This document shows, in pieces, positions 23,208 to 41,239 of a stretch of DNA of 64,000 nt. Made by a program: the position numbers and the translations under genes. The stretch spans positions 62,001 through 126,000 of the forward strand of contig CP013099.1 of assembly GCA_001447805.1 (NCBI GenBank), given 5' to 3'. Origin of the DNA: Candidatus Tenderia electrophaga. GTDB lineage: Bacteria > Pseudomonadota > Gammaproteobacteria > Tenderiales > Tenderiaceae. Position 1 is the stretch's first letter; every line of letters begins with the position of its first letter. Under the pieces are notes generated by a model. It ran no database searches. It saw only the letters and a program-made list of their open reading frames with translations, and was not told where the DNA came from.

Positions 23208-23780
23208 ATGGCAGGGAAACAATCTTTAAAGCAGGGCGAAAAGGTGATGTTCGGAATTTTCGGGGCCTTTATCGTCGCCGCGGTCATTGGTTACGTAGTG
23301 CTGGAAGTGGTGCGTCTCAACTCCGACACGCCGATATTCGAAGTCAAAACCCGCTATGAGCTTACTGAAGAGGGTCGGCGAGGATCACAGATTTTTCGCG
23401 AGGCCCGCTGTACCTCGTGCCATCGAGCCATGCGCAATGGTACGAATATGGGGCTGTCGCTCGATGGTCTGGGCTCAAAGCGCAGCTACGACTACATCTA
23501 TTCCTTCCTGAAGCGTCCCGAAGAGACGTACCCTGCGGTCACGCTTGACCACGGTATGCCGCCCAAGGAAGCGGCCTATGTTTCGGCCATGTCTGACGAG
23601 GACCTGCAAGCCGTCGCCGCGTTTCTGTTCGGGCTCAAGGCGGAACGGGGCTCGGCCCAGTCCGCGATCCCGCCGGAAGGCAAATCTCAATTTATTGATG
23701 ACGTCCTGAAAATGGTGACTCCTGAAAGTTGGAAAGACAAATATCAGGATGTGCGCGAAAAAGAAGCGGCAACAGAGTAG
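23208..23780 (+). CDS. Membrane-anchored monoheme cytochrome c
   Basis: 190 residues: a short cytoplasmic start, one uncleaved helix (about 15-35) and a periplasmic cytochrome c domain with C68-T-S-C71-H72 and a likely axial Met117 in H-G-M-P-P. This resembles one heme domain of CcoP placed on its own anchor. No CcoP is found in the window, so it could deliver electrons to the CcoN/CcoO pair (inference). The next gene starts 17 bases after its stop. Confidence 0.88.
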   Translation: MAGKQSLKQGEKVMFGIFGAFIVAAVIGYVVLEVVRLNSDTPIFEVKTRYELTEEGRRGSQIFREARCTSCHRAMRNGTNMGLSLDGLGSKRSYDYIYSFLKRPEETYPAVTLDHGMPPKEAAYVSAMSDEDLQAVAAFLFGLKAERGSAQSAIPPEGKSQFIDDVLKMVTPESWKDKYQDVREKEAATE

Positions 23781-23797
23781 TAGGAAGAGGTGATAGC

Positions 23798-24322
23798 GTG
23801 ACAGGTCAAGGGCAACCCTGGGCAGAAGACAAAGTCTATATTCGTTATACTCTTTGGTTTGTTTATGCTTGTATAATATATAGCATTATCGGGTTTTCCT
23901 GGGGGGCCTTGATGGGCGGGATTACCGACTTCCGCCACTTTGTCGATCACCGCTTACACGGCAACCTGATCGTGCGTGCCCATACCCACATCAACTTGCT
24001 TGGTTGGGTGGAAATGGCTATATTTGCCGGTGTTTATTATATAATTCCCCGTCTTGTAAAGCGCCATATCTATAGTGTCACCTTGGTAAAGGTCCATTTT
24101 TGGATCCACAATATCGGGTTGATAGGCATGGTGTTGCTGTTTACGATTGCCGGGGTTCTCGGGGGGTCCGCCAGCGTCTCCATGTCGCCTGACGAGGTGG
24201 AGCAGATTGTGAAACCCTGGTTGGCTGCTATGGGTATGTTCGGAACACTCGTATTGCTGGCCAATTGTATCTGGGCGTATAATTTGGCCAGGACCTGTAT
24301 TGGCTGGGAAAAGAACTACTAG
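23798..24322 (+). CDS. Half-length CcoN-like membrane protein A
   Basis: 174 residues, four helices. The stretch R-A-H62-T-H64-I-N-L-L-G-W-V-E-M, then V-Y-Y-I-I-P-R-L and V-H-F-W, aligns by eye with the helix pair of CcoN that carries the heme-ligand motif G-H-x-H and the following Y-Y-x-x-P-K-L ... W-H-F-W. The CuB-ligand half is missing. GTG start with AGGAAGAGG upstream. It may be a heme-binding partner of the oxidase; a second such protein lies at 38664-39182. Confidence 0.75.
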   Translation: MTGQGQPWAEDKVYIRYTLWFVYACIIYSIIGFSWGALMGGITDFRHFVDHRLHGNLIVRAHTHINLLGWVEMAIFAGVYYIIPRLVKRHIYSVTLVKVHFWIHNIGLIGMVLLFTIAGVLGGSASVSMSPDEVEQIVKPWLAAMGMFGTLVLLANCIWAYNLARTCIGWEKNY

Positions 24323-26298: not shown

Positions 26299-27705
26299 AT
26301 GTTGAAATACTTGTTCACGAGAAGTGAGGATATCCCGCCAGGCACGGCTGCGGTATACTTTGGTTTCTCGTCTATTATCTGGTTTGTGGTCGGCACAGGC
26401 CTGGGTTCATTTAATGCGGCGAAGCTCGCGTTCCCTGATTTTGTAACGGGGTCGGAGCTCTTTTCGTTTGGCCATATGCGCCAAGTTCACGTGTTGGCGG
26501 TAGTCTTCGGCTGGATTTCCATGGCGTTTGCCATGACGATGATGTATATCACGCCGGCATTGGGTAATACCAAGCTGTGGTCCGAAAAGCTGGCTGTGTG
26601 GAACTGCTTCCTGTGGAACATAGGCCTGTCTCTCGGCTTGACTATGCTGTGGGGCGGCATGAGTTCAGGTCGTGAATATTCCGATTTTCCCTGGATTGTC
26701 GATCTGGCTATCGTCGCCTTTGTCTTCATGCCTTTGATGATCAATGTGTTGATGACCATCGTTACGCGTCGTACGCAGGGTATCTATGTCACCAACTGGT
26801 TCTTCGGTGGCAGCATTTTCGCGGTTACGATTGTGTTTTTGGTGGGTAACAGCCCGGAGTGGTTCAATCTGACGGGTTTGAGTGAGGCCTATCTGACTTG
26901 GTGGTTCGCTCATAACGTGCTGGGTCTTTGGATTACCCCGGTTGCGGCCGCGATTGCGTATTACACCGTTCCTAAGGTAACCGGTAATCCGCTGTATTCG
27001 CATCGTATCGGCCATTTGCACTTCTGGTCTATTATAGTGTTTTATTCGACGCCCGCCGCTCACCATCTCATGTCATCGCCGCTGCCTGAGTGGCTGAAAT
27101 CATTCGCATCTGTAGAAGGGGTGTTGATTCTGGTGCCTGCAATCGCGTTTGTGTCCAACATTCTCCTGACAATGGCGGGTAAGTGGCATATGTTCGTCGA
27201 GAACATTGAAATCAAATTCACCATTACCGGTGTTCTGTTGGCGATTCCCTTGAACATGCAGGGCGGTTTTCAGCAGACTCGCGCCATTAACTGGTATGTG
27301 CACGGGACCGGCTGGATCGTCGCGCATGCCCATCTGGCGTTGCTGGGCATGTCTACATTCCTGGAAATTGCGGCAGTGTATTTCGGTCTGCAGACCGTTC
27401 TGCGTCGTAAGGTGTATTCCCTGGCACTGGCCAACTTCCACTTCTGGTTCGTATTGATCGGGTTCGTGATTTACTGGGTGTCTATGACCATCGCAGGTTT
27501 GATCCAGGGCGCGGGAAAGATCTATGAGGTTCCCTATATCGACGTCGTAATCGCCGAGCATCCGTATATGATCGCTCGTTGGATCGGCGGCACGATGGTG
27601 TTCACAGGCAATATAGTCTGGCTGTACAACATGTACATGACAGCCAAGGCTGGTACTGAAATCCCAGAAGGCCGTCTGCCGCACGAACTGGCTTACGAAC
27701 GTTAA
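26299..27705 (+). CDS. ccoN: cbb3-type (C-family) heme-copper oxidase catalytic subunit I
   Basis: 468 residues, about 12 helices. By-eye alignment with Pseudomonas stutzeri CcoN puts every ligand in place: His64 and His345 for low-spin heme b, His343 for heme b3, His205, His255 and His256 for CuB, and Tyr249, 44 residues after His205, at the position of the His-Tyr crosslink. The A-H-N-V-L-G and A-H-H-L motifs replace G-H-N-A-V-G and P-H-H-L. Retention of Tyr and three His argues for O2 reduction. Overall sequence is divergent from typical CcoN. Confidence 0.95.
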   Translation: MLKYLFTRSEDIPPGTAAVYFGFSSIIWFVVGTGLGSFNAAKLAFPDFVTGSELFSFGHMRQVHVLAVVFGWISMAFAMTMMYITPALGNTKLWSEKLAVWNCFLWNIGLSLGLTMLWGGMSSGREYSDFPWIVDLAIVAFVFMPLMINVLMTIVTRRTQGIYVTNWFFGGSIFAVTIVFLVGNSPEWFNLTGLSEAYLTWWFAHNVLGLWITPVAAAIAYYTVPKVTGNPLYSHRIGHLHFWSIIVFYSTPAAHHLMSSPLPEWLKSFASVEGVLILVPAIAFVSNILLTMAGKWHMFVENIEIKFTITGVLLAIPLNMQGGFQQTRAINWYVHGTGWIVAHAHLALLGMSTFLEIAAVYFGLQTVLRRKVYSLALANFHFWFVLIGFVIYWVSMTIAGLIQGAGKIYEVPYIDVVIAEHPYMIARWIGGTMVFTGNIVWLYNMYMTAKAGTEIPEGRLPHELAYER

Positions 27706-27732: not shown

Positions 27733-28683
27733 GTGGCGTTTAGAGAATACAAAATTGGGGCGCGCCTTTTCGGCGTAGCCCTGGGTGGCTCGATGGTTAT
27801 CACCCTATACATGCCCACAGTGGACATGACCTCTGTGCAGGTAACCGAAACCGGCCTTAAGAAGCAGTTGTCATATGGTCGTATCGGCGGGTTTTCTTAC
27901 GAAGATCCATTCCTGCAGGGTGAAGGGAAACCCAAGACGGTTGTCTTGAACAAGGATCCAAAGACCGGCGAGTCGATGGAAACTGTTGAGGCATACGTCT
28001 ATGAAAAAGGAGTTCCGTTTGCCGGCGGTATTAACCATCCCCGGATTCTCGGGAAGGGTGTGACCGAGCTGAGTAAGGAGAAAGGGCGTGTCACCGAGGC
28101 CGACGATAGCCAAGGGGCTGTATTTTTAGTGCAGCGTGGTACCTACCAAGGGGAAACTGTCAACTACATCGAAAATGCGACGGCGACACGCGGATGGCAG
28201 CCCCAGCAGGTTCTAAAGGCGGGCGGAGATGCCAACACGCACTACATCGGCTCGGGCAAAATCATGTTTGTCCGGGAAGGGTGTTGGTGGTGTCACACAC
28301 TGCTGCCGGAACAGACCCAGGATTGGCAGGCCTTCGGTATTCCGCCGCGCCTGGGTGACTTTAACGGCGAATCGCCAACCGCCTTCGGGTCGGACCGCAA
28401 GGCCCCCGATCTGCTACACGTGGGGTCACGCAATTCGTCTAAAGAGTGGATGATGATGCACTTCTTTAACCCCCGTCTGGTCCAGCCGCATTCAATCATG
28501 CCGCGTTTCGACTACCTATGGGGCGAGAAAGACGCGGATGGCAATCCGATTGACTTTGCTGCCTGGCGAACCGCATATAATAAGTACAAAGATGGCCAAA
28601 CCGTCTATCCGCCGGAAATACCAAGCTACGCGCCGGATAGCGAGATCCGTTATCTGATTGACTTTGTGCTTAGCTTGAAGTAA
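27733..28683 (+). CDS. ccoO: CcoO-like monoheme cytochrome c subunit with large insertion
   Basis: 316 residues against about 200 in usual CcoO. A helix at about 12-28, then about 145 residues not found in standard CcoO, then the CcoO heme domain: R-E-G-C184-W-W-C187-H188, A-P-D-L-L-H-V-G-S-R, F-N-P-R and H-S-I-M256-P with Met256 the probable axial ligand. GGGAGG precedes the GTG start. It follows ccoN after 27 bases and should carry electrons to heme b. Confidence 0.88.
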   Translation: MAFREYKIGARLFGVALGGSMVITLYMPTVDMTSVQVTETGLKKQLSYGRIGGFSYEDPFLQGEGKPKTVVLNKDPKTGESMETVEAYVYEKGVPFAGGINHPRILGKGVTELSKEKGRVTEADDSQGAVFLVQRGTYQGETVNYIENATATRGWQPQQVLKAGGDANTHYIGSGKIMFVREGCWWCHTLLPEQTQDWQAFGIPPRLGDFNGESPTAFGSDRKAPDLLHVGSRNSSKEWMMMHFFNPRLVQPHSIMPRFDYLWGEKDADGNPIDFAAWRTAYNKYKDGQTVYPPEIPSYAPDSEIRYLIDFVLSLK

Positions 28684-31321: not shown

Positions 31322-32395
31322 ATGGTCAAGCGGTACCAAAACAAGCGCCGGCTCAGTGACGCGGATCGGGCGAAACGCAAACGCTTCCTGGCAGCCACCC
31401 TGGTAACTTGCGCCGCACTGGCGATGGTCGGGGGCTCCCTGCACGTGGTAGATCTGGGCCACACGCGTGTATTTCAGGAGATGCCGGGCAAGGCCACCTA
31501 CGATATCGCCAAGATGGAGTCACGCATTCGCGCCGCGGGAGAGGACATAACGCGGCACGCGCGACATGAGGCCGGTAAGCTGGAGCTGGTTAAATACAGT
31601 CCTGATGATGTTGAGGCAATGCTCGCGCCCGACATCTGGGCTGAGATCGACACCATGGTCACCATTCCCGAGGGTCCTTTTTTGATGGGCTCGGACCGCA
31701 TCAGAACCGGCGCCCAGAACCGGCCGCGACATGAAGTGACATTGCCTGCATACAAGATCGACAAATACCCTGTCACCAACGCCCAGTACGCTCGTTTCGT
31801 CGCCGCGCAGGACTATCGTGCCCCGCTGGATTGGGAGCAGGGCCAGATCCCCGAAGGCTTGGAGCTGCACCCGGTTACCATGGTCTCCTGGTACGACGCC
31901 AGCAATTATTGCGGCTGGGCAGGCAAGCGCCTGCCGCGCGAGGCGGAATGGGAAAAGGCGGCGCGCGGTGAAGACGCTCGCCGTTGGCCGTGGGGACAAC
32001 AGATGGAGCCGGATCGTCTGAACACCTATTACGGCGTCGGGTCGACGACCCCAGTCACCGCCTATCCCGAAGGTGCCAGTCCGTACAGCGTGATGGATAT
32101 GGCCGGGAATGTTTCCGAATGGATTGAAGACGACTTCTTGCCCTATGAGGGAACGGATGCCGGCAAGGAGCTGTTTCAGGGCAAGATCGCGGTTGCGTCC
32201 ACCCCCACCGATCGCGCCATGAAGGTGGTTGATCTGGTCGGGGTCGATGCCAAATACAAGGTGCTACGCGGCGGGTCGTGGAAAAGCGATCCTTTTTCCA
32301 CCACCACCTATCACCGCAATTATTCATGGCCGCATTATGCATCCGACTTTTTTGGTTTTCGCTGTGCGGCGGATACGAGTGAACAGGGGGGGTGA
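31322..32395 (+). CDS. Formylglycine-generating-enzyme-fold protein without catalytic cysteines (NirV-like)
   Basis: 357 residues: one helix (about 22-42), a linker of about 80 residues, then an FGE/SUMF1-type domain beginning I-P-E-G-P-F-L-M-G-S and showing P-V-T-N-A-Q-Y, V-S-W-Y-D-A, L-P-R-E-A-E-W-E-K-A-A-R-G, D-M-A-G-N-V-S-E-W and L-R-G-G-S-W. The C-terminal region that carries the copper-binding cysteine pair in true FGE has only one Cys (F-G-F-R-C), so formylglycine formation is unlikely. Similar proteins (NirV) accompany denitrification genes. Likely a periplasmic assembly or structural part. Confidence 0.85.
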   Translation: MVKRYQNKRRLSDADRAKRKRFLAATLVTCAALAMVGGSLHVVDLGHTRVFQEMPGKATYDIAKMESRIRAAGEDITRHARHEAGKLELVKYSPDDVEAMLAPDIWAEIDTMVTIPEGPFLMGSDRIRTGAQNRPRHEVTLPAYKIDKYPVTNAQYARFVAAQDYRAPLDWEQGQIPEGLELHPVTMVSWYDASNYCGWAGKRLPREAEWEKAARGEDARRWPWGQQMEPDRLNTYYGVGSTTPVTAYPEGASPYSVMDMAGNVSEWIEDDFLPYEGTDAGKELFQGKIAVASTPTDRAMKVVDLVGVDAKYKVLRGGSWKSDPFSTTTYHRNYSWPHYASDFFGFRCAADTSEQGG

Positions 32396-33016: not shown

Positions 33017-33066
33017 TTTAGCGATGCGGCGCGTACAGTTTGCTGCGGGCATCAGAGCTTGAGCTG

Positions 33067-35706
33067 ATGTCCGTCGAGGTTTCGACAGTGAATGCTGCGC
33101 GGCCATCCTATGTGAGCGGGGTGGCCGCGCTTTATTTTTTTTCCGGGGGCATCGGGCTGGCGTACCAAGTGCTGTGGGCGCGCATGCTGTCGCTGCAGTT
33201 CGGGGTCAGTATCTTCGGCGTGGTGGTGACCGCCGCCGCCTTTATGCTGGGCCTGGGGATGGGGGCCCTGCTGGGCGGCCACATCGGTCGAGGACGCCGA
33301 CATCCGCTGCGCCTGTTCGCCTTGATCGAAATCTTGATCGCTGTGTATGCCCTGCTGTTACCCATGGTGCTGCGTGGTGTCGACGACGTTGTAATGTGGC
33401 TGGCGTCCGACAGCCTCGGGTTCTGGTACGCCCTGCAACTGAGCGCGGCATTGCTGCTGATCACCTTGCCCGCCACCCTCATGGGTGTGGGGTTTCCCCT
33501 GATATTAAAGGCCGTGCAGCATACGCCGCTGAGTCTGGCGCGACTTTACGGATTGAACACTTGCGGCGCGGCCGTGGGTGCCTTGCTGCCCCTGGTGTTG
33601 TTGCCGGCGCTGGGATGGGTCGCTGGGGTCTGGCTGGTGGCGACAGCGGGGATGGTGGTGGCGGTGGCCGCCTGGGCGCTGTCACGGCAAGCGCAGACTG
33701 AGACCGTCATCACTACAGAGCCCGTTTCGTGGCGTTCGGTGCCGCCCTTTACCTTGCTCGCCTATGCCGGCGTCGGCGCCGCGGCGCTGATGCTGGAGGT
33801 GGGTTGGACACGCCTGTTTGGCATGCTGCTGCTGCGCACCGAATACGTGATGGCGGTGATCCTGGCGGTATTTCTTTTGGGGATCGGGCTGGGCAGCCTG
33901 GTGGCTCGGCGTCTTAACGGACGTATCTGGTTTGATGTCTTGCCCGTTGCCGCAGCGCTGTTCGCGCTGCTAAGCCTGTGGGCCATTCCGGCACTGGCGG
34001 GCTGGGCCGAGCGCAGCGACTTCGACTCGTTAGCGGCGGCCATGTGGGCCCAGGGCCTGGCGATCGCCCTGCTGACCCTGCCGGTGACCTTGTTGCTGGG
34101 GGCCTGGCTGCCCCTGTTGAGCGCGCGTTTTGGGCGGAACAAGGCCCTCGGCGCCATGCTCTACGGCGCCAATTCCATCGGCGCCGCGGCGGGCGCCCTG
34201 TTGGCGGGGTTTGTCTTGGTGCCCTGGCTCGGCACGACGGGGGCGGTGGTGGCGGCTGCGCTACTGTTGTTTTTCGCCGGCATGGCCTGGGCGGCGCGGC
34301 ACAGCTGGCTGGCCTTGCCGCTGCTGCTGGGGCTGGCGTGGCCGGTATGGCACCTGCCGGCGGTGAATCAGCTATTGCCCCATACGCAGGGCGGCAGTCG
34401 CGATTTGTTCGTGCATGAAGACGCCCTGAGTATTACCCATGTGATTGAACGAGCTGACGGTCAGCGACTCTTGCTGGCCGATCTGCAACGCATGGACGCC
34501 TCCTCCGATCCGCTGGCGGTGGTGTCGCAACAAAATCAGGTGCGTCTGGCCCTGTTACTGCACCCCGACCCGAAGCAGGTATTGTTCCTTGGTCTGGGCA
34601 CCGGTATTTCGGCCGCGGCATCGTTGCCCTATCCGGGCTTGGAGCGCACCGCCGTGGAATTATCCCAGGGTGCCATCGCCGCGGCACGGCACTGGTTTGC
34701 TCCCGTCAACGATAATATCAGCGACAACATGAACATCGTGCGTGACGATGCCCGCCGTTTTCTGCAGACCGCCCCCGACAGCTACGATGTGATTATCGGT
34801 GATCTGTTCCATCCCGATCTGGTCGGGCGCAGCGCCTTGCTTTCGCTGCAGCAGTTCAAACGCGCGCGTTTGCGACTGAAGCCGGGCGGTGTGTTTGTCC
34901 AGTGGCTGGCCCTGAACCAGTTCGATGCCGACTCGCTGCAGGTGGTGTTGCGCACCTTTCAGCGGGTATTTCCCCGGGCGGTGCTGTTTGTCGACGGCTT
35001 TCGTCTGGCCCTGGTGGGCGGGCAGGATTGGCGGCTTTCGGCCCGCCTCGTGCAGCATAATCTGGCACGGCTGGCGCCCGCGGCGCGTAGTGAGGCGACC
35101 GGCGGCGAAGGGGTATGGAGTTGGCTGGGGCGTTATTGGGGTCCCATCCGTCCCAGCGAGGGCGCGCTGCAGAGCGAGTGGGCGCCAGTGATTGAATATC
35201 ATCTGCCGCGTGCCCGTTATCGTGGCGAGATGGATGTGGTGGCATTGGTGGAGTGGCTACTGCGGCAACGCCCTCATCTCGCCGAGGCGGGCCAGGCCTT
35301 GCGCATCGCTGATGATGAAGTGGATGCATTCGAGCGCGGTTACGCCGCTACAGAGCTGGCCTTACGCGCCTGGGTGGCGGAATTGAAAGGTGATGTGCGC
35401 CAGGCCCAACGTCTGTTGCGGCTGGCCTACCAGGCCAATCCCCGCGACCGCTGGGTGAGCGGCGCTCTGGCCGATCGCATGTACGCCGGCTTGCAGGCCA
35501 TGAGCTCGCAGGCAGCGGACCGGCGGCGGGCGCTGGAGGCGATCTTGTTCGTGCGCCCTGATCATGCCGATGCCCTGCGTGAACTGTGGCGCCTGGAACG
35601 GGTCCAAGGCAATATGGAGCGTGCTGCGGAGTATCGTCATATGTTGCGGCGTTACAGCCCTCTGGATGCGGCCTTGGAACAAATTTCGGAGTCCGATCGC
35701 GGATGA
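33067..35706 (+). CDS. Fused MFS-type membrane / spermidine-synthase-like protein
   Basis: 879 residues. About 12-14 helices (1-430), then a Rossmann methyltransferase-like spermidine synthase domain (L-G-L-G-T-G-I-S-A-A, V-E-L-S, D-A-R-R-F-L, I-I-G-D-L-F) and a helical, TPR-like C-terminal 180 residues. Proteins of this layout are widespread but mostly unstudied; aminopropyl transfer is not proven. It sits between oxidase-associated genes and ccoG. I chose ATG 33067 over an upstream TTG. Confidence 0.85.
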   Translation: MSVEVSTVNAARPSYVSGVAALYFFSGGIGLAYQVLWARMLSLQFGVSIFGVVVTAAAFMLGLGMGALLGGHIGRGRRHPLRLFALIEILIAVYALLLPMVLRGVDDVVMWLASDSLGFWYALQLSAALLLITLPATLMGVGFPLILKAVQHTPLSLARLYGLNTCGAAVGALLPLVLLPALGWVAGVWLVATAGMVVAVAAWALSRQAQTETVITTEPVSWRSVPPFTLLAYAGVGAAALMLEVGWTRLFGMLLLRTEYVMAVILAVFLLGIGLGSLVARRLNGRIWFDVLPVAAALFALLSLWAIPALAGWAERSDFDSLAAAMWAQGLAIALLTLPVTLLLGAWLPLLSARFGRNKALGAMLYGANSIGAAAGALLAGFVLVPWLGTTGAVVAAALLLFFAGMAWAARHSWLALPLLLGLAWPVWHLPAVNQLLPHTQGGSRDLFVHEDALSITHVIERADGQRLLLADLQRMDASSDPLAVVSQQNQVRLALLLHPDPKQVLFLGLGTGISAAASLPYPGLERTAVELSQGAIAAARHWFAPVNDNISDNMNIVRDDARRFLQTAPDSYDVIIGDLFHPDLVGRSALLSLQQFKRARLRLKPGGVFVQWLALNQFDADSLQVVLRTFQRVFPRAVLFVDGFRLALVGGQDWRLSARLVQHNLARLAPAARSEATGGEGVWSWLGRYWGPIRPSEGALQSEWAPVIEYHLPRARYRGEMDVVALVEWLLRQRPHLAEAGQALRIADDEVDAFERGYAATELALRAWVAELKGDVRQAQRLLRLAYQANPRDRWVSGALADRMYAGLQAMSSQAADRRRALEAILFVRPDHADALRELWRLERVQGNMERAAEYRHMLRRYSPLDAALEQISESDRG

Positions 35707-35738: not shown

Positions 35739-37055
35739 ATGAGCGGCAATAAAACCTTAGGCAAGATACCGGTGGTCATCGAAGCGCGCCGGCCCAGTTA
35801 TAAACTGCACTGGCAACGCCGTGCCTTCCAGCTGTCCGTGCTGGCCTTGTTGGTGATTATCCCCGTCAGCGGTCTGTTTCGCATTGACCCGATGCAAGGC
35901 GCGTTTGCGATGCTGGGCCGCCAGATCTGGTTTTCCGACTTCGGTATGGTGTTCGGTTTCTGGATGGTGGTGGCCTGCCTGTTGGCCATGCTCTATTCGA
36001 TGATGGGCACGGTCTTTTGCGGTTGGGCCTGTCCCCAGAACACCCTCTCGGAATTGGCCAACATGGCGACCCAGAAACTGCTCGGCCGGCGTGCCGAGGT
36101 CAGCCTGGATGGCACCCCCATGAAGCTCTCCAGCGCCAAGAACAGGCCGCTTAACTGGACCGTGCTGGTGCTACTCTGTGCTGCGGTGTCCGGGGCGGTG
36201 GCCTTGATCCCGCTGTTTTATTTCTACGAGCCGGCGCTTGTCTGGAAATTCATTACCTTTCAACACGACCCGGGTCTGGCGCCGTCGCTGCATTGGATTT
36301 ACACCGTGTTCTTTTTGGTGATCTTGGTGGACATCACCATGATTCGCCATTTCATGTGCCGCTTCATGTGCATCTACAAGGTCTGGCAACACACCTTCAA
36401 GACCCGCCAGACCTTGCATGTGGCCTATGACGACAGCCGCGCCGACGAGTGCACCAAGTGCAACTATTGCGTCAGCTCCTGCTTTCTCGGTATCGACCCG
36501 CGCCGCACCGATGTCTATGACACCTGCATCAATTGCGGCGAATGCATCACCGCCTGCGACAATCTTCAGGTGCGCAAACAGAGCGACCGCGAGGGCCTGT
36601 TGAAATTCGCCATGGGCGAGCGTCAGGGACAGAACTTCGATCGTTTCAAGACCAATGTCAGTGACCTGTTTTCGCGGGTCTCGTGGGCCTTTCCTCTCTT
36701 TCTGATCGGGGTGTTGTTGGTGGCCTGGGGGGCTTGGAGTTATGATCGTTACCATCTCACGGTGTACCGCGCCGAAACCTTGCAAGGGGCGCAGATTTCG
36801 GACTATCGCATCTCGGTGGCCAATAAGTTCTACCAGCCGACCCGGCTCTATGTCGCGGTGGAAGGCCTGCCGGACAGTGCCTATAGCTTGGCAAGCGACA
36901 AGGTGGATTTCATTACCGCGGGACGCCTCGATGTCGGTCTGCACATCAGTCCCGACCTGGCCAAGGGGCTGTATCCGGTGACGGTCCGGGTTCAGTCGGA
37001 AGACGGTTGGGAAGAAAGCTTCCGCATCCAACATTTCTCAGGAGGTGGCGTATGA
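35739..37055 (+). CDS. ccoG: Cytochrome cbb3 oxidase accessory protein CcoG
   Basis: 438 residues of the FixG/RdxA family: four to five helices, ferredoxin-type clusters (C-T-K-C-N-Y-C-V-S-S-C near residue 240 and C-I-N-C-G-E-C-I-T-A-C further on), the F-C-G-W-A-C-P motif near residue 93 and a C-terminal Ig-like domain. CcoG is a cupric reductase needed for copper supply to cbb3 oxidases. Its presence supports the assignment of the cluster. The stop overlaps the next start (ATGA). Confidence 0.95.
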   Translation: MSGNKTLGKIPVVIEARRPSYKLHWQRRAFQLSVLALLVIIPVSGLFRIDPMQGAFAMLGRQIWFSDFGMVFGFWMVVACLLAMLYSMMGTVFCGWACPQNTLSELANMATQKLLGRRAEVSLDGTPMKLSSAKNRPLNWTVLVLLCAAVSGAVALIPLFYFYEPALVWKFITFQHDPGLAPSLHWIYTVFFLVILVDITMIRHFMCRFMCIYKVWQHTFKTRQTLHVAYDDSRADECTKCNYCVSSCFLGIDPRRTDVYDTCINCGECITACDNLQVRKQSDREGLLKFAMGERQGQNFDRFKTNVSDLFSRVSWAFPLFLIGVLLVAWGAWSYDRYHLTVYRAETLQGAQISDYRISVANKFYQPTRLYVAVEGLPDSAYSLASDKVDFITAGRLDVGLHISPDLAKGLYPVTVRVQSEDGWEESFRIQHFSGGGV

Positions 37056-37486
37056 GTGAGCAAAAGCATCAACCCTTGCCCAAGGAGGAGTTGACCTCGA
37101 TTGAGAGCAAGTGGGGCAAACAGCCCGACGATCACTTTGGCTATGCCAGCGACGAGGAGCGTCGCGCCAAACGAGGTATGGAGGATTGGGAGATGGTCGA
37201 ATCCATTCCCGAGTCGCAAAAAGGCATTCCCAAATGGTTTCTCGGTGTGGTGATCGTGGTGCTATTGGTGGCCATCGGACTCAGCTTCCCCTTTTGGGGC
37301 GACCGTCCCGGTTATGAACGTGAATGGGTCAACTGGGGCTTCGGGCTCGCTCTGATCTACATCGCCGTGGCCGCGACCTTTGTCTATTTCATGGTGAATC
37401 TGTACGGTTCCAAGTACGGCGGCCGCCTCGACCTGGATAACAGCGAAACAGAACGACAAGGGGCGGACAAACACAAGCATGACTAG
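37052..37486 (+). CDS. P-x-W-G-x-R-P motif membrane protein 2 (oxidase-associated)
   Basis: 144 residues: hydrophilic start of about 58 residues, K-G-I-P-K-W-F leading into a helix (about 62-80), the motif F-P-F-W-G-D-R-P-G-Y-E, a second helix (about 96-117) and a charged tail. It shares the helix and motif with the 207-residue protein at 28699 but lacks its loop. It resembles the N-terminal part of CcoP in layout and lies just before a cytochrome c lipoprotein. GGAGG is seven bases before the ATG. Confidence 0.65.
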   Translation: MSEQKHQPLPKEELTSIESKWGKQPDDHFGYASDEERRAKRGMEDWEMVESIPESQKGIPKWFLGVVIVVLLVAIGLSFPFWGDRPGYEREWVNWGFGLALIYIAVAATFVYFMVNLYGSKYGGRLDLDNSETERQGADKHKHD

Positions 37487-37772
37487 GTGGTTCGTCCTGC
37501 CGTTGCTGCCGCTGTTACTCATCGCCTGTGAATTGCCGCAGCAGAGCTCCCACACCGTATTGCCGGCATCCGATTCAAAGGGCGCGCAGCTGATGAAAAA
37601 GTACTGCTCCGATTGTCACGCGCCGCCCAGTCCGGCGGCACATACCGCCAAGGAGTGGCCCAACGTGATTTATCGTATGCAGGAGCGACGTCGCATGAAG
37701 GCCTACACCCTGATAGATGAAAACGAAGAGCGTCTGTTGCTCGATTATCTCAAGGAATTTGCCAAGAGCTAA
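37479..37772 (+). CDS. Monoheme cytochrome c lipoprotein
   Basis: 97 residues with a lipobox (L-I-A-C, Cys17) and one heme site C43-S-D-C46-H47. The axial sixth ligand is unclear; Met66 or Met72 are candidates. It overlaps the preceding gene by eight bases, giving an anchor-plus-heme pair that could act as a split CcoP (inference). Confidence 0.85.
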   Translation: MTRWFVLPLLPLLLIACELPQQSSHTVLPASDSKGAQLMKKYCSDCHAPPSPAAHTAKEWPNVIYRMQERRRMKAYTLIDENEERLLLDYLKEFAKS

Positions 37773-37775
37773 GCC

Positions 37776-38168
37776 ATGCGTAGTTTGATCGTCGTATTGA
37801 TTATGTTGCTGCTGAGCGCTTGCAGCGAACCCGATCCGCGTTTTTTGATGGTGCCGCAGCAATGGAACGATACCGTAGTCCAGATAGAAAGCCGGCCGAC
37901 ACCGATACGTCCCGGCATGAACGAATTCCTGATTATGGCCACCACCGAGCGCGGCAGGCCCGTGCCGGACCTAGTGGTGTCGCTGCGCGCCGCGACCGAT
38001 GATGAATGGCAGCAGGCGATACAGGACGGTCACAGCGGCGTTTATCGCCGCGCGCTGCGCGTACCGCCGGGTGCGCCAAGCGTGCTCGTGCAGCTGCGCA
38101 AGACGCATTCGGATGAAGAGGCGGTATTGGAATTCCCCATTGTATATGCGGACGAGCTTAAGTCTTAA
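37776..38168 (+). CDS. Small lipoprotein, YtkA/FixH-like fold possible
   Basis: 130 residues with lipobox L-L-S-A-C (Cys16) and a beta-rich domain including R-P-G-M-N-E-F-L-I and G-V-Y-R-R-A-L. This arrangement recalls YtkA/FixH-type domains found beside CcoG in cbb3 gene sets, but the match is weak. Start three bases after the cytochrome stop. Its last bases overlap the end of the opposite-strand gene. Confidence 0.55.
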   Translation: MRSLIVVLIMLLLSACSEPDPRFLMVPQQWNDTVVQIESRPTPIRPGMNEFLIMATTERGRPVPDLVVSLRAATDDEWQQAIQDGHSGVYRRALRVPPGAPSVLVQLRKTHSDEEAVLEFPIVYADELKS

Positions 38169-38667
38169 GGCGTTTGCTCAAACGGCCGCTTTGTTCCCAG
38201 CGGCGCAGTAGTAATATCTTGGCGCCGCCGCGCTGCTCCTGGCACAAAGGACAGGTCAGATAGCTGAGATATAATTCTTTCGGCATGCGTCCGGCATCAA
38301 GCAGTTTCGCCTGCATTTCCCGTACGCTGTTTTTGATGGTGCCGATGTCTCCTTGGTGCAGTTTGCCGCGCAGTTGAAACGGGTAGGGCAGTCGCTTAAC
38401 GTGGCGTGACGGTGAATCGGCCGAGCTCAGCGGAGCAAGAATCCGGCCGCGCAACCAACCGGTCCGGGTGAGGTAGAAATCGGGCCAGCGCGGTTCCAAT
38501 TCCAGCTGGCTGACCAGATGGCGCGCCCGACCCAGATAGACCTCGTATCCCATGGGCATGTGCAAAAAGCTGGGAATGGGCAACTCCAGCATCGCCGCGC
38601 CGCCCAAGTCGACATCCTCATTGTCCCAGTCAGGGAAATGTTCGGGGCAGCCGCACTCCAGGGTCAT
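38158..38667 (-). CDS. Unknown soluble protein with two Cys pairs
   Basis: 169 residues, no helix. It starts M-T-L-E-C-G-C-P-E-H and has C-P-L-C near residue 138, a possible zinc or iron site. Its ATG overlaps the stop of the half-CcoN gene (ATGA), so the two are translationally coupled. No family recognised. Confidence 0.65.
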   Translation of the reverse strand: MTLECGCPEHFPDWDNEDVDLGGAAMLELPIPSFLHMPMGYEVYLGRARHLVSQLELEPRWPDFYLTRTGWLRGRILAPLSSADSPSRHVKRLPYPFQLRGKLHQGDIGTIKNSVREMQAKLLDAGRMPKELYLSYLTCPLCQEQRGGAKILLLRRWEQSGRLSKRLKT

Positions 38668-39182
38668 GCGTCGTCGTTATGTCGGGCTTTGTAAATCGTC
38701 ATGGCGCTGTTGGTGAGAAACAGCCATAAGCCGATGCCCATGATGGTGGCGGAAACGGCGCCGATGGGGATATAGATATCATGGACCTCTTTCACCGATT
38801 CGGCACCGTATTCAAGCAGCAGGATTCCTTCCCATACACCAAATAAAATCAGGCTGCCGTAGAAACAGATTACCCCCATCAGGGTCATCCAAAATGAGAC
38901 GTCTTCCAGCTTACGCGACCAGATCTGGCTACCGGTGAAGCGCGGTAACAGATAGTAGGTGACCGCCATGGCCAGCATCATCACGCCGCCGATGAGATTG
39001 ACATGGGCGTGGGCCAGTGGGTCAATCATGTGCCCCGGTCCGCCGTAGGGGCTGCCGATGCTGTCCAGCCAGGCGCGCACGGGGGGTAGCATCTGCAGGA
39101 CTCCCTGGATACTTCCGATGAAGAAAAAGGTGACTGAGGCGGCGAGAAATTTGGTCAGGTGTCTGTGTTGTCTATCCGGCAT
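38664..39182 (-). CDS. Half-length CcoN-like membrane protein B
   Basis: 172 residues, four helices. L-A-H58-A-H60-V-N-L-I-G-G-V-M-M, then T-Y-Y-L-L-P-R-F and an S-F-W segment, follow the same CcoN stretch as the protein at 23798-24322, though the third-helix W-H-F-W becomes V-S-F-W. The two half-CcoN genes flank the oxidase cluster. Small C-family subunit I homologues exist in databases under oxidase names; their function is unknown. Confidence 0.75.
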   Translation of the reverse strand: MPDRQHRHLTKFLAASVTFFFIGSIQGVLQMLPPVRAWLDSIGSPYGGPGHMIDPLAHAHVNLIGGVMMLAMAVTYYLLPRFTGSQIWSRKLEDVSFWMTLMGVICFYGSLILFGVWEGILLLEYGAESVKEVHDIYIPIGAVSATIMGIGLWLFLTNSAMTIYKARHNDDA

Positions 39183-39257: not shown

Positions 39258-39284
39258 AAAAAGCCCGGCAGGCCCGGGCTTTTT
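39258..39284 (-). terminator. Bidirectional-looking terminator
   Basis: AAAAAGCCCGG and CCGGGCTTTTT form an 11-base stem with a 5-base loop, with A- and T-runs on both sides. It separates the 41-residue microprotein gene from the half-CcoN gene. Confidence 0.88.
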
Positions 39285-39305
39285 CGCATCCAGATGAGTT
39301 GTTGC

Positions 39306-39431
39306 TTAGTCTGGTTGCTTCTTGTGTTCGATGTTCTTAAGCGCAGTCCCCGCCATCACGGCGGACAACACTACGGTCAGCCCAAAGAAGATTGTCAGTG
39401 GAACCAACATGCCGATGCTAAATATTGCCAT
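39306..39431 (-). CDS. 41-residue single-helix microprotein
   Basis: From the ATG at 39431, preceded by GGGAGGG, a 41-codon frame encodes M-A-I-F-S-I-G-M-L-V-P-L-T-I-F-F and a helix ending in a basic tail (N-I-E-H-K-K-Q-P-D). The longer frame upstream is less likely because that start has no ribosome site. Fourth microprotein around the oxidase cluster, with its own terminator. Confidence 0.7.
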   Translation of the reverse strand: MAIFSIGMLVPLTIFFGLTVVLSAVMAGTALKNIEHKKQPD

Positions 39432-39529
39432 TATTCCCTCCCGAATGAATGTTGTATAAAAATGCTTGACGCTATTAAATATCTGTCGCTCGAGTCTAGA
39501 ACAATTCGCCAGGCGGTGCAAGCCCAGGC

Positions 39530-41239
39530 TCAATGCTCCCTAAGCCGTGCCGCGCCGCCGCCGCGCGGATCGCTGGCCGCCGCTACCCGGCCGGCCTGTA
39601 CGTGCCACAGGATGGACTGCATGTCGCCGTAGCGGCGCGTCATGGGTTTCAGCTCATGGCCCAGGCGTTCGAGTTGTGCCTGTTGTCCAGCGCTGATGGC
39701 GCCCGGCTCGAATTGAATGGCGTCGGGCAGATATTGATGATGGAAGCGGGGCCGGCTGACCCAGTCCAAGGGCGGCCTGCCGGCGGCGAATTCCAGCGCG
39801 CCCAGTAGCACCATGGTGATGATGCGACTGCCGCCGGGGGTGCCGAGAATCGCCACCCGGTCTTCGGTTTCCAGAAAGGTGGGGCTCATGCTCGACAGGG
39901 GGCGTTTGCCGGGGGCGATGGCATTGGCCTCGGCGCCCACCAGGCCGTAGGCGTTGGGCACCGTGGGTTTGGCGGAAAAATCATCCATTTCGTTGTTCAG
40001 CAACACCCCGGTGCCGGGCGGGATAAACACCGCACCGAAGGGATAATTGATGCTCAGGGTGGCGGCGACGCGGTTGCCGTCTTGGTCGAGAATAGAAAAG
40101 TGGGTGGTGTCCTGGCCGGGGGTGTTGTGATCGATCCCCGGCAGCAGACGGCTGGGGGTGGCGCGATCCAGGCGGATGCTGTTGCGCAGTCCGGCGGCAT
40201 ACAGGGGATGGGTCAGCATGGCCACCGGCACCTCGACGAAATCGCTGTCGCCCAGGTATTCGGCACGGTCGCGATAGGCGCGCCGCATGGCCTCGACAAT
40301 GGTATGGATGCGCGTCGTCTCATCCATCTGGTCCAGCTCGAAGCCAGCCAGGATATTGAGCATGGTCACCAAGGCGATGCCGCCGGAGGAGGGCGGCGCG
40401 GCGGAGCTGATGCGCATGCCGCGATAGTCGCCGCGGATGGGCGCCCGTTCCACGACCTGGTATTGCCGCAGGTCCTCCAGGGTCCAGATGCCGCCGCCCC
40501 GGCGCACGCCGTCGACCAATCTTTGCGCGAGCTTCCCGGCGTAGAAACCGTCACGGCCGTGTTCGGCGATGGCCGTCAGTGTCTCGGCCAGTTCCGGCTG
40601 TTTGATGACGTGTCCCGGCGGCGGCAGCTCATTGTCGTGCAGAAAGATGCGCGCCGTCTCGGCGTCGTCTTGCAGGTGTTTGAGGCGGAAGCGGGCCAAT
40701 ACGCGATAATGCTCGTCTACGGCGAAGCCCTCGCGGGCGGCACGGATGGCCGGGGCCAGACTTTGCTTGAGCGGCAGGCGGCCATATTTATCAGCGATAT
40801 GCACCAGGGCCGCCGGCTCACCGGGAATGCCCGCCGCCAACGGGCCGTTCATGGACAGGCCGGGCACGACCTCGCCTGCGGCGTCCAGATACATATCCCG
40901 ATGGGCCGCCAGCGGTGCGCGCTCACGGCCGTCCACCATGGTTTCGAAACCGTCCGCGGCGCGATGCAGCAGCCAGAAGCCGCCGCCGCCCAAGCCGGAG
41001 CCGGTGGGCTCCACCACCGCCAGGGTGGCGCTCACGGCCACGGCGGCGTCGAAGGCGTTGCCGCCGGCGGCGAGGATCTCGTGGCCGGCAGCGGTGGCCA
41101 AGGGATGGGCGCTGGCCACGGCGGCGGCGGGTGGTGTTTGCGCCTGGGCGCCGCCCATAAACGACAACAGCAGGGTCAGAAGCCCCGCTGTCAGATGTTG
41201 CCGCGAAAAATCGCCGGCGTATGAGAAGCTGATCCTCAT
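39530..41239 (-). CDS. ggt: Gamma-glutamyltransferase
   Basis: Periplasmic Ntn-hydrolase that cleaves glutathione and transfers gamma-glutamyl groups. Start at ATG 41239 gives a signal peptide (L-T-A-G-L-L-T-L-L-L-S-F). The autoprocessing Thr lies in D-T-T-H-F-S-I-L-D at about residue 380, with S-M-S-P-T and G-T-P-G-G-S-R downstream. 569 residues, full length. It begins 12 bases after the ferredoxin stop. Confidence 0.95.
   Translation of the reverse strand: MRISFSYAGDFSRQHLTAGLLTLLLSFMGGAQAQTPPAAAVASAHPLATAAGHEILAAGGNAFDAAVAVSATLAVVEPTGSGLGGGGFWLLHRAADGFETMVDGRERAPLAAHRDMYLDAAGEVVPGLSMNGPLAAGIPGEPAALVHIADKYGRLPLKQSLAPAIRAAREGFAVDEHYRVLARFRLKHLQDDAETARIFLHDNELPPPGHVIKQPELAETLTAIAEHGRDGFYAGKLAQRLVDGVRRGGGIWTLEDLRQYQVVERAPIRGDYRGMRISSAAPPSSGGIALVTMLNILAGFELDQMDETTRIHTIVEAMRRAYRDRAEYLGDSDFVEVPVAMLTHPLYAAGLRNSIRLDRATPSRLLPGIDHNTPGQDTTHFSILDQDGNRVAATLSINYPFGAVFIPPGTGVLLNNEMDDFSAKPTVPNAYGLVGAEANAIAPGKRPLSSMSPTFLETEDRVAILGTPGGSRIITMVLLGALEFAAGRPPLDWVSRPRFHHQYLPDAIQFEPGAISAGQQAQLERLGHELKPMTRRYGDMQSILWHVQAGRVAAASDPRGGGAARLREH

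Follow-up and report, generated by a model that had tools for sequence, protein, structure and literature searches.

Gene content of the oxidase cluster

The analysed window is a stretch of 64,000 nucleotides from the genome of Candidatus Tenderia electrophaga (contig CP013099.1, positions 62,001 to 126,000). It harbours the genes of a cbb3-type oxidase, and two small genes related to ccoN, encoding proteins A and B, are located on either side of the oxidase genes, as the first-pass annotation had pointed out. The gene encoding protein B overlaps with the gene of a further protein, K. The following features, with positions counted along the window, are considered here.

23798..24322, forward strand, protein A, a second one-third CcoN; the GTG start at 23798 is predicted from a AGGAAGAGG-like site
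23981..23989, forward strand, HTH motif (HxH) of protein A; H69, H71, and N73 are invariant in 22 sequences
26299..27705, forward strand, full-length cluster CcoN, of a divergent clade; COX1 E 3.9e-76, 238 bits against the NCBIfam ccoN cut-off of 583
27733..28683, forward strand, CcoO-like cytochrome subunit; the FixO match covers residues 174-266 only
35739..37055, forward strand, CcoG-like ferredoxin-type accessory protein; TIGR02745 129 bits, below the cut-off of 316.7
37055..38168, forward strand, three genes encoding H1, a small cytochrome, and a FixH-like lipoprotein, convergent with the B and K genes
38158..38667, reverse strand, protein K, 169 aa, member of PF20603, SOUL/GyrI fold in the model
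38242..38253, reverse strand, C-terminal CPxC motif of K, CPLC (C139, C142); both Cys are invariant in 63 sequences
38647..38655, reverse strand, N-terminal CxC motif of K, CGC (C5, C7); invariant in 63 sequences
38664..38667, reverse strand, ATGA overlap of four bases between the stop of B and the start of K
38664..39182, reverse strand, protein B, 172 aa, a four-helix relative of the CcoN C-terminal third
39003..39032, reverse strand, residues H51-H60 of B, HMIDPLAHAH, equivalent to CcoN HYTDWTIGHVH (P. stutzeri H337/D340/H345/H347, counted on the alignment with 3mk7_A)

The open reading frame of A, delimited mechanically, spans 23729-24322. The name FixH-like is our own, and the protein matched no family. 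The gene of protein A adjoins two cytochrome c genes and the CcoN operon. The genes of B and K form a separate two-gene operon of opposite orientation, outside the structural operon, and this operon lies beside and convergent with the CcoG-like gene and other cluster genes in the window and in many other loci.

A scan of named genomes revealed 217 B loci, from which the best 80 were kept; these 80 were found by motifs including HxxDPLAH, and conservation among them is partly by construction. Their hosts (best 80 of 217 loci) are Ca. Tenderia, uncultured Gammaproteobacteria, Mariprofundus and other Zetaproteobacteria, and Gallionella and relatives. The cluster genes found most often near B in the best 80 of the 217 loci are those of the FixH-like lipoprotein (53/80), H1 (50/80), the CcoG-like protein (47/80), and the spermidine-synthase-like protein (46/80); that of the small cytochrome is present in 30/80. 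Protein B is 45-89% identical in its relatives, and K adjoins B in 62 of these 80 loci (best 80 of 217), so that the arrangement seen in the window is far beyond chance.

Protein B is related to the C-terminal third of CcoN

Protein B matches Pfam COX1 (PF00115) with an E-value of 2.9e-14 and 53.2 bits (gathering threshold 34.8), over profile positions 309-423 of 436, and all 36 aligned B members match this profile at E<=0.01. The NCBIfam ccoN model gives 39.9 bits against a cut-off of 583, with residues 8-127 of B aligned to model positions 304-414 only; thus B does not pass as a full-length CcoN. The comparison of profiles with CcoN and NorB, which the first-pass annotation had proposed as a check, was carried out with the B alignment against solved chains, and it places B clearly nearer to CcoN (best, E 4.5e-11) than to NorB (E 8.4e-4). 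A plasmid search gave no match.

The structure model of B (pLDDT 90) consists of four long helices and shows the four-helix repeat fold of subunit I according to Foldseek and VIA-align. The top Foldseek matches were CcoN chains, with a TM-score of 0.71 by query and modest E-values (1.4e-3 to 5e-3). VIA-align gave Z 13.4 to CcoN, 13.8 to qNOR, and 9 to unrelated four-helix proteins; the fold is therefore common to B and to NorB/qNOR, with tied Z scores, and it is the sequence profile that sets B nearer to CcoN. Weak alignments of the same B region to the other two thirds of CcoN were also obtained (first third, i-Evalue 0.76; second third, 0.56; chain 8smr_E). Subunit I of the oxidases has an internal threefold repeat, so these weak alignments are expected.

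Protein B is thus a true relative of CcoN, corresponding to one third of an oxidase subunit I with four helices. The earlier description as a half-CcoN was right about the relationship and has to be corrected in extent, since both model and profile indicate the last third. Similar to CcoN, the catalytic subunit I of cbb3 oxidases (PDB 9g6b, 8smr, and 3mk7), B shows the corresponding profile, fold, and HxH and HxxD positions. However, B has four helices and CcoN twelve, B lacks the CuB ligands and the heme ligand of transmembrane helix II, and its motif is HxHxN, whereas CcoN has HxHxG/A.

Heme-ligand positions in protein B

Counting along the profile alignment, H58 and H60 of B fall on H345 and H347 of P. 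stutzeri CcoN, and H51 and D54 fall on H337 and D340. In CcoN, H345 and H347 are the ligands of heme b3 and heme b. Therefore, B carries the paired heme ligands (HxH) of the next-to-last helix group of CcoN. Residues D54, H58, H60, and N62 are invariant in 29 B sequences and H51 is conserved in 28 of them, with R in locus L159; this set, consisting of 28 loci and the window, was collected with BLAST and not with motifs. In CcoN, the middle third bears the CuB ligands and the cross-linked Tyr. Protein B has no such middle third and hence neither of them, and it likewise lacks the third of CcoN with the heme ligand of helix II.

The outer loop of B, residues 36-62, is nearly invariant. Within it, residues 41-60 combine the highest conservation (means 0.89 and 0.98) with the lowest model confidence (pLDDT 54 and 62), which fits a loop ordered by a cofactor or a partner. 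Protein B may hold heme b via H58 and H60, probably at the outer face of the membrane.

Protein A and its relation to B and CcoN

Similar to B, protein A is a four-helix one-third CcoN with an HxHxN motif, present in the same genomes. COX1 matches A with an E-value of 3.5e-18 at profile positions 311-433. Protein A is 31% identical to the cluster CcoN over 131 aa (E 1e-15) and 40% identical to B over 60 aa (BLASTP, E 1e-10). The absence of similarity between A and B had been named in the first-pass annotation as the outcome that would speak against it, and similarity was found, both in this comparison and in the common match to COX1. The H-x-H that it reported in both proteins is present as AHAH (H58, H60) in B and AHTH in A. 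The Y-Y-L-L-P-R pattern holds for B (YYLLPR), and A has the close, not identical YYIIPR. In contrast to these likenesses, the identity of A and B is confined to 60 aa, their operon partners differ, and A has the additional invariant residues H107 and H111.

In the sequence set used for the phylogeny, HxHxN was found in 36 of 36 B sequences, at the first match in seven of eight A sequences (the eighth gives another first match), and in no CcoN sequence. The maximum-likelihood tree of C-terminal thirds (68 sequences before duplicate removal, unrooted, with long branches) places all CcoNs on one side with support 93, and A and B outside. This separation indicates that neither A nor B was copied recently from the cluster CcoN, and recent duplication of this gene is rejected as the origin of B. 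The scores of B point the same way: the cluster CcoN gave 21 bits, and the other CcoN-type genes of the genome gave more (42.3 and 31.0 bits). Of the proposed duplication, the relatedness of A and B therefore stands, and recent copying of the cluster CcoN does not. The HxHxN motif common to A and B favours them as possible sisters, and the unrooted, long-branched tree is read solely for their separation from the cluster CcoN.

DUF2871 (PF11070), a small Pfam family of unknown function, matches A weakly (E 1.2e-4, positions 23777-24319 of the window) and one of the 36 B members (E 0.0028), below the Pfam cut-off. By these matches, DUF2871 is possibly another stand-alone one-third oxidase family. 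Proteins A and B are two separate families kept in the same genomes, which fits distinct roles.

Protein K and its coupling to B

The coupled protein K possesses the C-G-C and C-P-L-C motifs noted in the first-pass annotation (C5/C7 and C139/C142), and the overlap between the stop of B and the start of K described there is the four bases ATGA at 38664-38667. Translational coupling of B and K is likely. Among the 62 B-K pairs in the best 80 of 217 loci, the four-base overlap occurs in 29 and the genes are 30 bases apart or less in 60, with starts chosen by script.

Besides the four Cys, M37 and P38 are invariant in 63 K sequences and H36 is conserved in 97%. A signal peptide or membrane helix is not obvious in K, as judged by eye. 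PF20603, named 'Bacterial hydrolase', matches K with 30.9 bits (gathering threshold 27) and all 35 aligned K members. The core members of PF20603 have the Cys pairs, the W, and the H-x-P in common with K, but their genomic surroundings are unrelated to those of K. The literature search found no paper naming the accession PF20603.

A sequence search of solved structures with K revealed nothing significant. The K model (pLDDT 91) shows the SOUL/GyrI fold by VIA-align, with Z 13.8 to CTR107, 11.8 to SOUL, 11.1 to p22HBP, and 10.9 to SbmC; 41 rows of this fold have Z 6.6-13.8, and the next, unrelated rows about 5. The match covers the whole domain, yet identity of these proteins to K is 5-15% and a four-Cys feature is not what their structures are named for. 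Some proteins of this fold bind heme and others bind drugs, and the model suggests that K may have a tetrapyrrole ligand.

The 18 of the best 80 loci (of 217) without an adjoining K include the Gallionella-type loci. A K-like gene was found in six of 19 genomes searched, namely those of 18 K-less loci and strain PV-1. Twelve of thirteen Gallionella-type genomes have no K, and the thirteenth has only a weak relative (E 8.8e-15). Conservation of the Cys-pair gene in other genomes, a further point raised in the first reading, was thus found outside the Gallionella group and does not extend to it. It follows that K is not always needed and cannot be essential to B.

Distribution and co-occurrence of A, B, K, and CcoN

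Across 229 gammaproteobacterial genomes, sampled evenly, 22 carry B, 21 carry A, 21 carry K, and 20 carry the cluster CcoN, all within the same 22 genomes (thresholds: B E<1e-30, A E<1e-60, K E<1e-60, CcoN E<=1e-120). No A, K, or cluster CcoN was detected at these thresholds in the other genomes of this class sample. Of the 22, G045 alone has neither A nor K; its B and CcoN are divergent, and its match to A is its CcoN, left out of the A count. CcoN is absent only from the fragmented assemblies G330 and G438. Distant K relatives in G403 and G461 (E 2e-11 and 5e-10) were left out of the K count. The 22 genomes belong to 15 families, and the Fisher tests take no account of kinship.

In the phylum sample of 249 genomes, B was found in 40 and CcoN in 38, with 35 genomes having both; none of the eight genomes with one and not the other is more than 93% complete. 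PF20603 was present in 45 genomes, the same 40 with B and five others. The class sample is the better test, because most positives of the phylum sample form one clade (family f73). Furthermore, CcoN was present in 35 of 37 genomes reached via B loci, with the genes unlinked in many; apart from PV-1, which was added, these genomes were selected because K or the cluster genes were missing near B, and the exceptions are G476 (locus L044) and G501 (L072). A dedication of A and B to the cbb3-type oxidase of the cluster is well supported.

Second copies of B without K were found at L043:8808-10507, L044:2857-5010, L047:8433-10495, and L053:247-2048, away from oxidase genes and divergent from NhaR-type LysR regulators. 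In all four loci, which are those inspected, the LysR neighbour passes the NCBIfam NhaR cut-off. Hence, B is not solely an oxidase-operon gene.

Relation to published work

Excerpts of PMC5371394 describe a region syntenous between Ca. Tenderia electrophaga and Mariprofundus ferrooxydans, with a polyferredoxin followed by three hypothetical genes (Tel_00495-00510) and also Cyc1. This region is very probably the present cluster, because the gene order matches that of the CcoG-like protein, H1, the small cytochrome, and the FixH-like protein. According to the same excerpts, the three hypothetical genes were higher at 310 mV and 'complex IV-2' was among the most expressed; A, B, and K go unmentioned in them. 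In the excerpted part of PMC3179512, ccoNOP is listed in PV-1. What is new is that this partly published cluster carries two conserved mini-CcoN proteins; neither these nor K were found described in the excerpts of the literature on small CcoN proteins, PF20603, SOUL proteins with oxidases, and cbb3 clusters of iron-oxidising bacteria.

Proximal and distal cbb3 types are distinguished in the excerpts of PMC7029218, PMC10734462, and PMC8788666. With 238 bits against the 583-bit ccoN cut-off, the cluster CcoN is at least divergent, and it is suspected to be of the distal type ('distal' clade of Ducluzeau et al., the label being taken from these three sources). In Sideroxydans ES-1, according to the excerpt of PMC8788666, the distal ccoN and ccoO were up on thiosulfate and the proximal set was up on Fe(II)-citrate. 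Most genomes with B are metagenome-assembled genomes of unknown physiology. Given these and the thiosulfate data excerpted from PMC8788666, a role restricted exclusively to iron oxidation is unsupported.

Gene lists are the main source of knowledge on the terminal oxidase of neutrophilic iron oxidisers and of the cathode bacterium Ca. Tenderia. Relatives of iron-oxidising and electrode-oxidising bacteria encode a small membrane protein corresponding to one third of a respiratory oxidase, paired with a soluble protein of heme-binder-like fold, and both accompany one oxidase type. The set of A, B, and K, which tracks one CcoN clade across Gamma- and Zetaproteobacteria, provides candidates for the special features of this oxidase and markers for it. 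Oxidase thirds that stand alone and retain intact heme-ligand positions are also a simple system for studying how the core binds or obtains heme b and the evolution of its threefold repeat.

Possible roles of A, B, and K

Protein B is homologous to CcoN with the ligand positions retained, is coupled to K, and co-occurs with A and one oxidase clade. Our tentative preference, held at somewhat less than even confidence, is that B and its relative A are heme-b-binding accessory proteins for the assembly of the cbb3-type oxidase, with K as cytoplasmic partner. Protein B would hold heme b via its HxH pair at the outer side of the inner membrane and, alongside A, would hold or hand on heme b during the assembly of CcoN. 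Protein K would be made from the transcript of B by coupled translation, would probably be the cytoplasmic partner of B, and may bind a cofactor or metal through its SOUL/GyrI-type pocket and four-Cys site. This assembly role is backed by the occurrence of B, A, K, and the cluster CcoN in the same genomes, by the invariance of the heme-ligand positions, and by the fold of K, which includes the heme-binding SOUL and p22HBP. Nevertheless, a B monomer gives only one side of a bis-His site, the four K-less B copies stand alone beside NhaR genes and one such genome (G476) has no CcoN, and a structural subunit would give identical co-occurrence. As to K, ligands other than heme, drugs among them, are also bound by proteins of the SOUL/GyrI fold.

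A serious alternative, in our estimation somewhat less likely, is that B and A are permanent subunits, in which homo- or hetero-oligomers would carry low-spin heme b at their interfaces and serve as an extra electron path or as a docking module on the oxidase or supercomplex for periplasmic cytochromes. The tight co-occurrence of A, B, and CcoN agrees with this, as do the position of A next to the two cytochrome c genes and the CcoN operon and the near invariance of residues 36-62 in the outer loop of B, which would suit a surface for docking or for a cofactor; ligands on two faces of one helix would be available from HxH. However, B and K are in their own oppositely oriented operon and not in the structural one, it is hard to see where K would fit in a respiratory complex, and second B copies lie away from any oxidase gene. 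The assembly role is preferred, by a small margin, to that of a permanent subunit because the B-K pair is a separate convergent unit beside the CcoG-like gene and other likely accessory genes, and because K resembles a ligand-handling protein.

Rather improbable is a more far-reaching proposal, that A and B are living single-repeat units of heme-copper oxidases. They would form four-helix oligomers with heme b between copies via HxHxN, like the building block of the pseudo-threefold core, and would now be heme-carrying partners of the terminal oxidase in extracellular-electron-consuming bacteria.

That B is a membrane heme sensor for O2, NO, or redox state, with K as cytoplasmic output domain, appears improbable. 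The fold of K is that of the effector-binding domains of BmrR, EcmrR, and Rob, and in all four loci inspected the K-less B copy is oriented divergently from an NhaR-type regulator, but K has no DNA-binding part, the B of Gallionella has no K, and strict coupling to one oxidase would be unexpected for a general sensor. Very improbable is that B is itself a small catalyst, for example an NO- or peroxide-reacting heme protein. By alignment, H58 occupies the position of H345 of CcoN, the high-spin heme ligand. However, B is without the two thirds of CcoN that bear the CuB ligands and the helix II heme ligand, and no data point to a substrate. Finally, that B is a mere remnant of a CcoN gene or the product of an accidental truncation, as the match to only the last third of the COX1 profile might suggest, can be dismissed. 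An intact B is conserved in 22 of the 229 genomes of the class sample and in 40 of the 249 of the phylum sample, which refutes decay; its ligand residues are invariant, and its clade is separate from all CcoNs.

Further genes in the cluster and the genome

The CcoO-like subunit (27733-28683) possesses a long extra N-terminal part of some 170 residues ahead of the FixO match. Inside the oxidase cluster, a protein with an FGE-sulfatase domain (PF03781, E 1.6e-55) is encoded at 31322-32395, and the gene is present in 32 of the best 80 B loci (of 217). The spermidine-synthase-like gene found near B in 46 of these loci is part of the cluster and encodes, at 33040-35706, a membrane protein of 888 aa with a spermidine-synthase domain. 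Upstream of B, at 39258-39533, a gene S for a small one-helix protein (likely about 42 aa) was found, with a terminator-like GC hairpin between S and B; it occurs in nine of the best 80 loci (of 217), mostly in near relatives. A further COX1 gene of the genome (G000:C1:1943093-1944355, locus L003) lies inside an open frame of 976 codons, probably the CcoN-CcoO fusion mentioned in the excerpts of PMC5371394.
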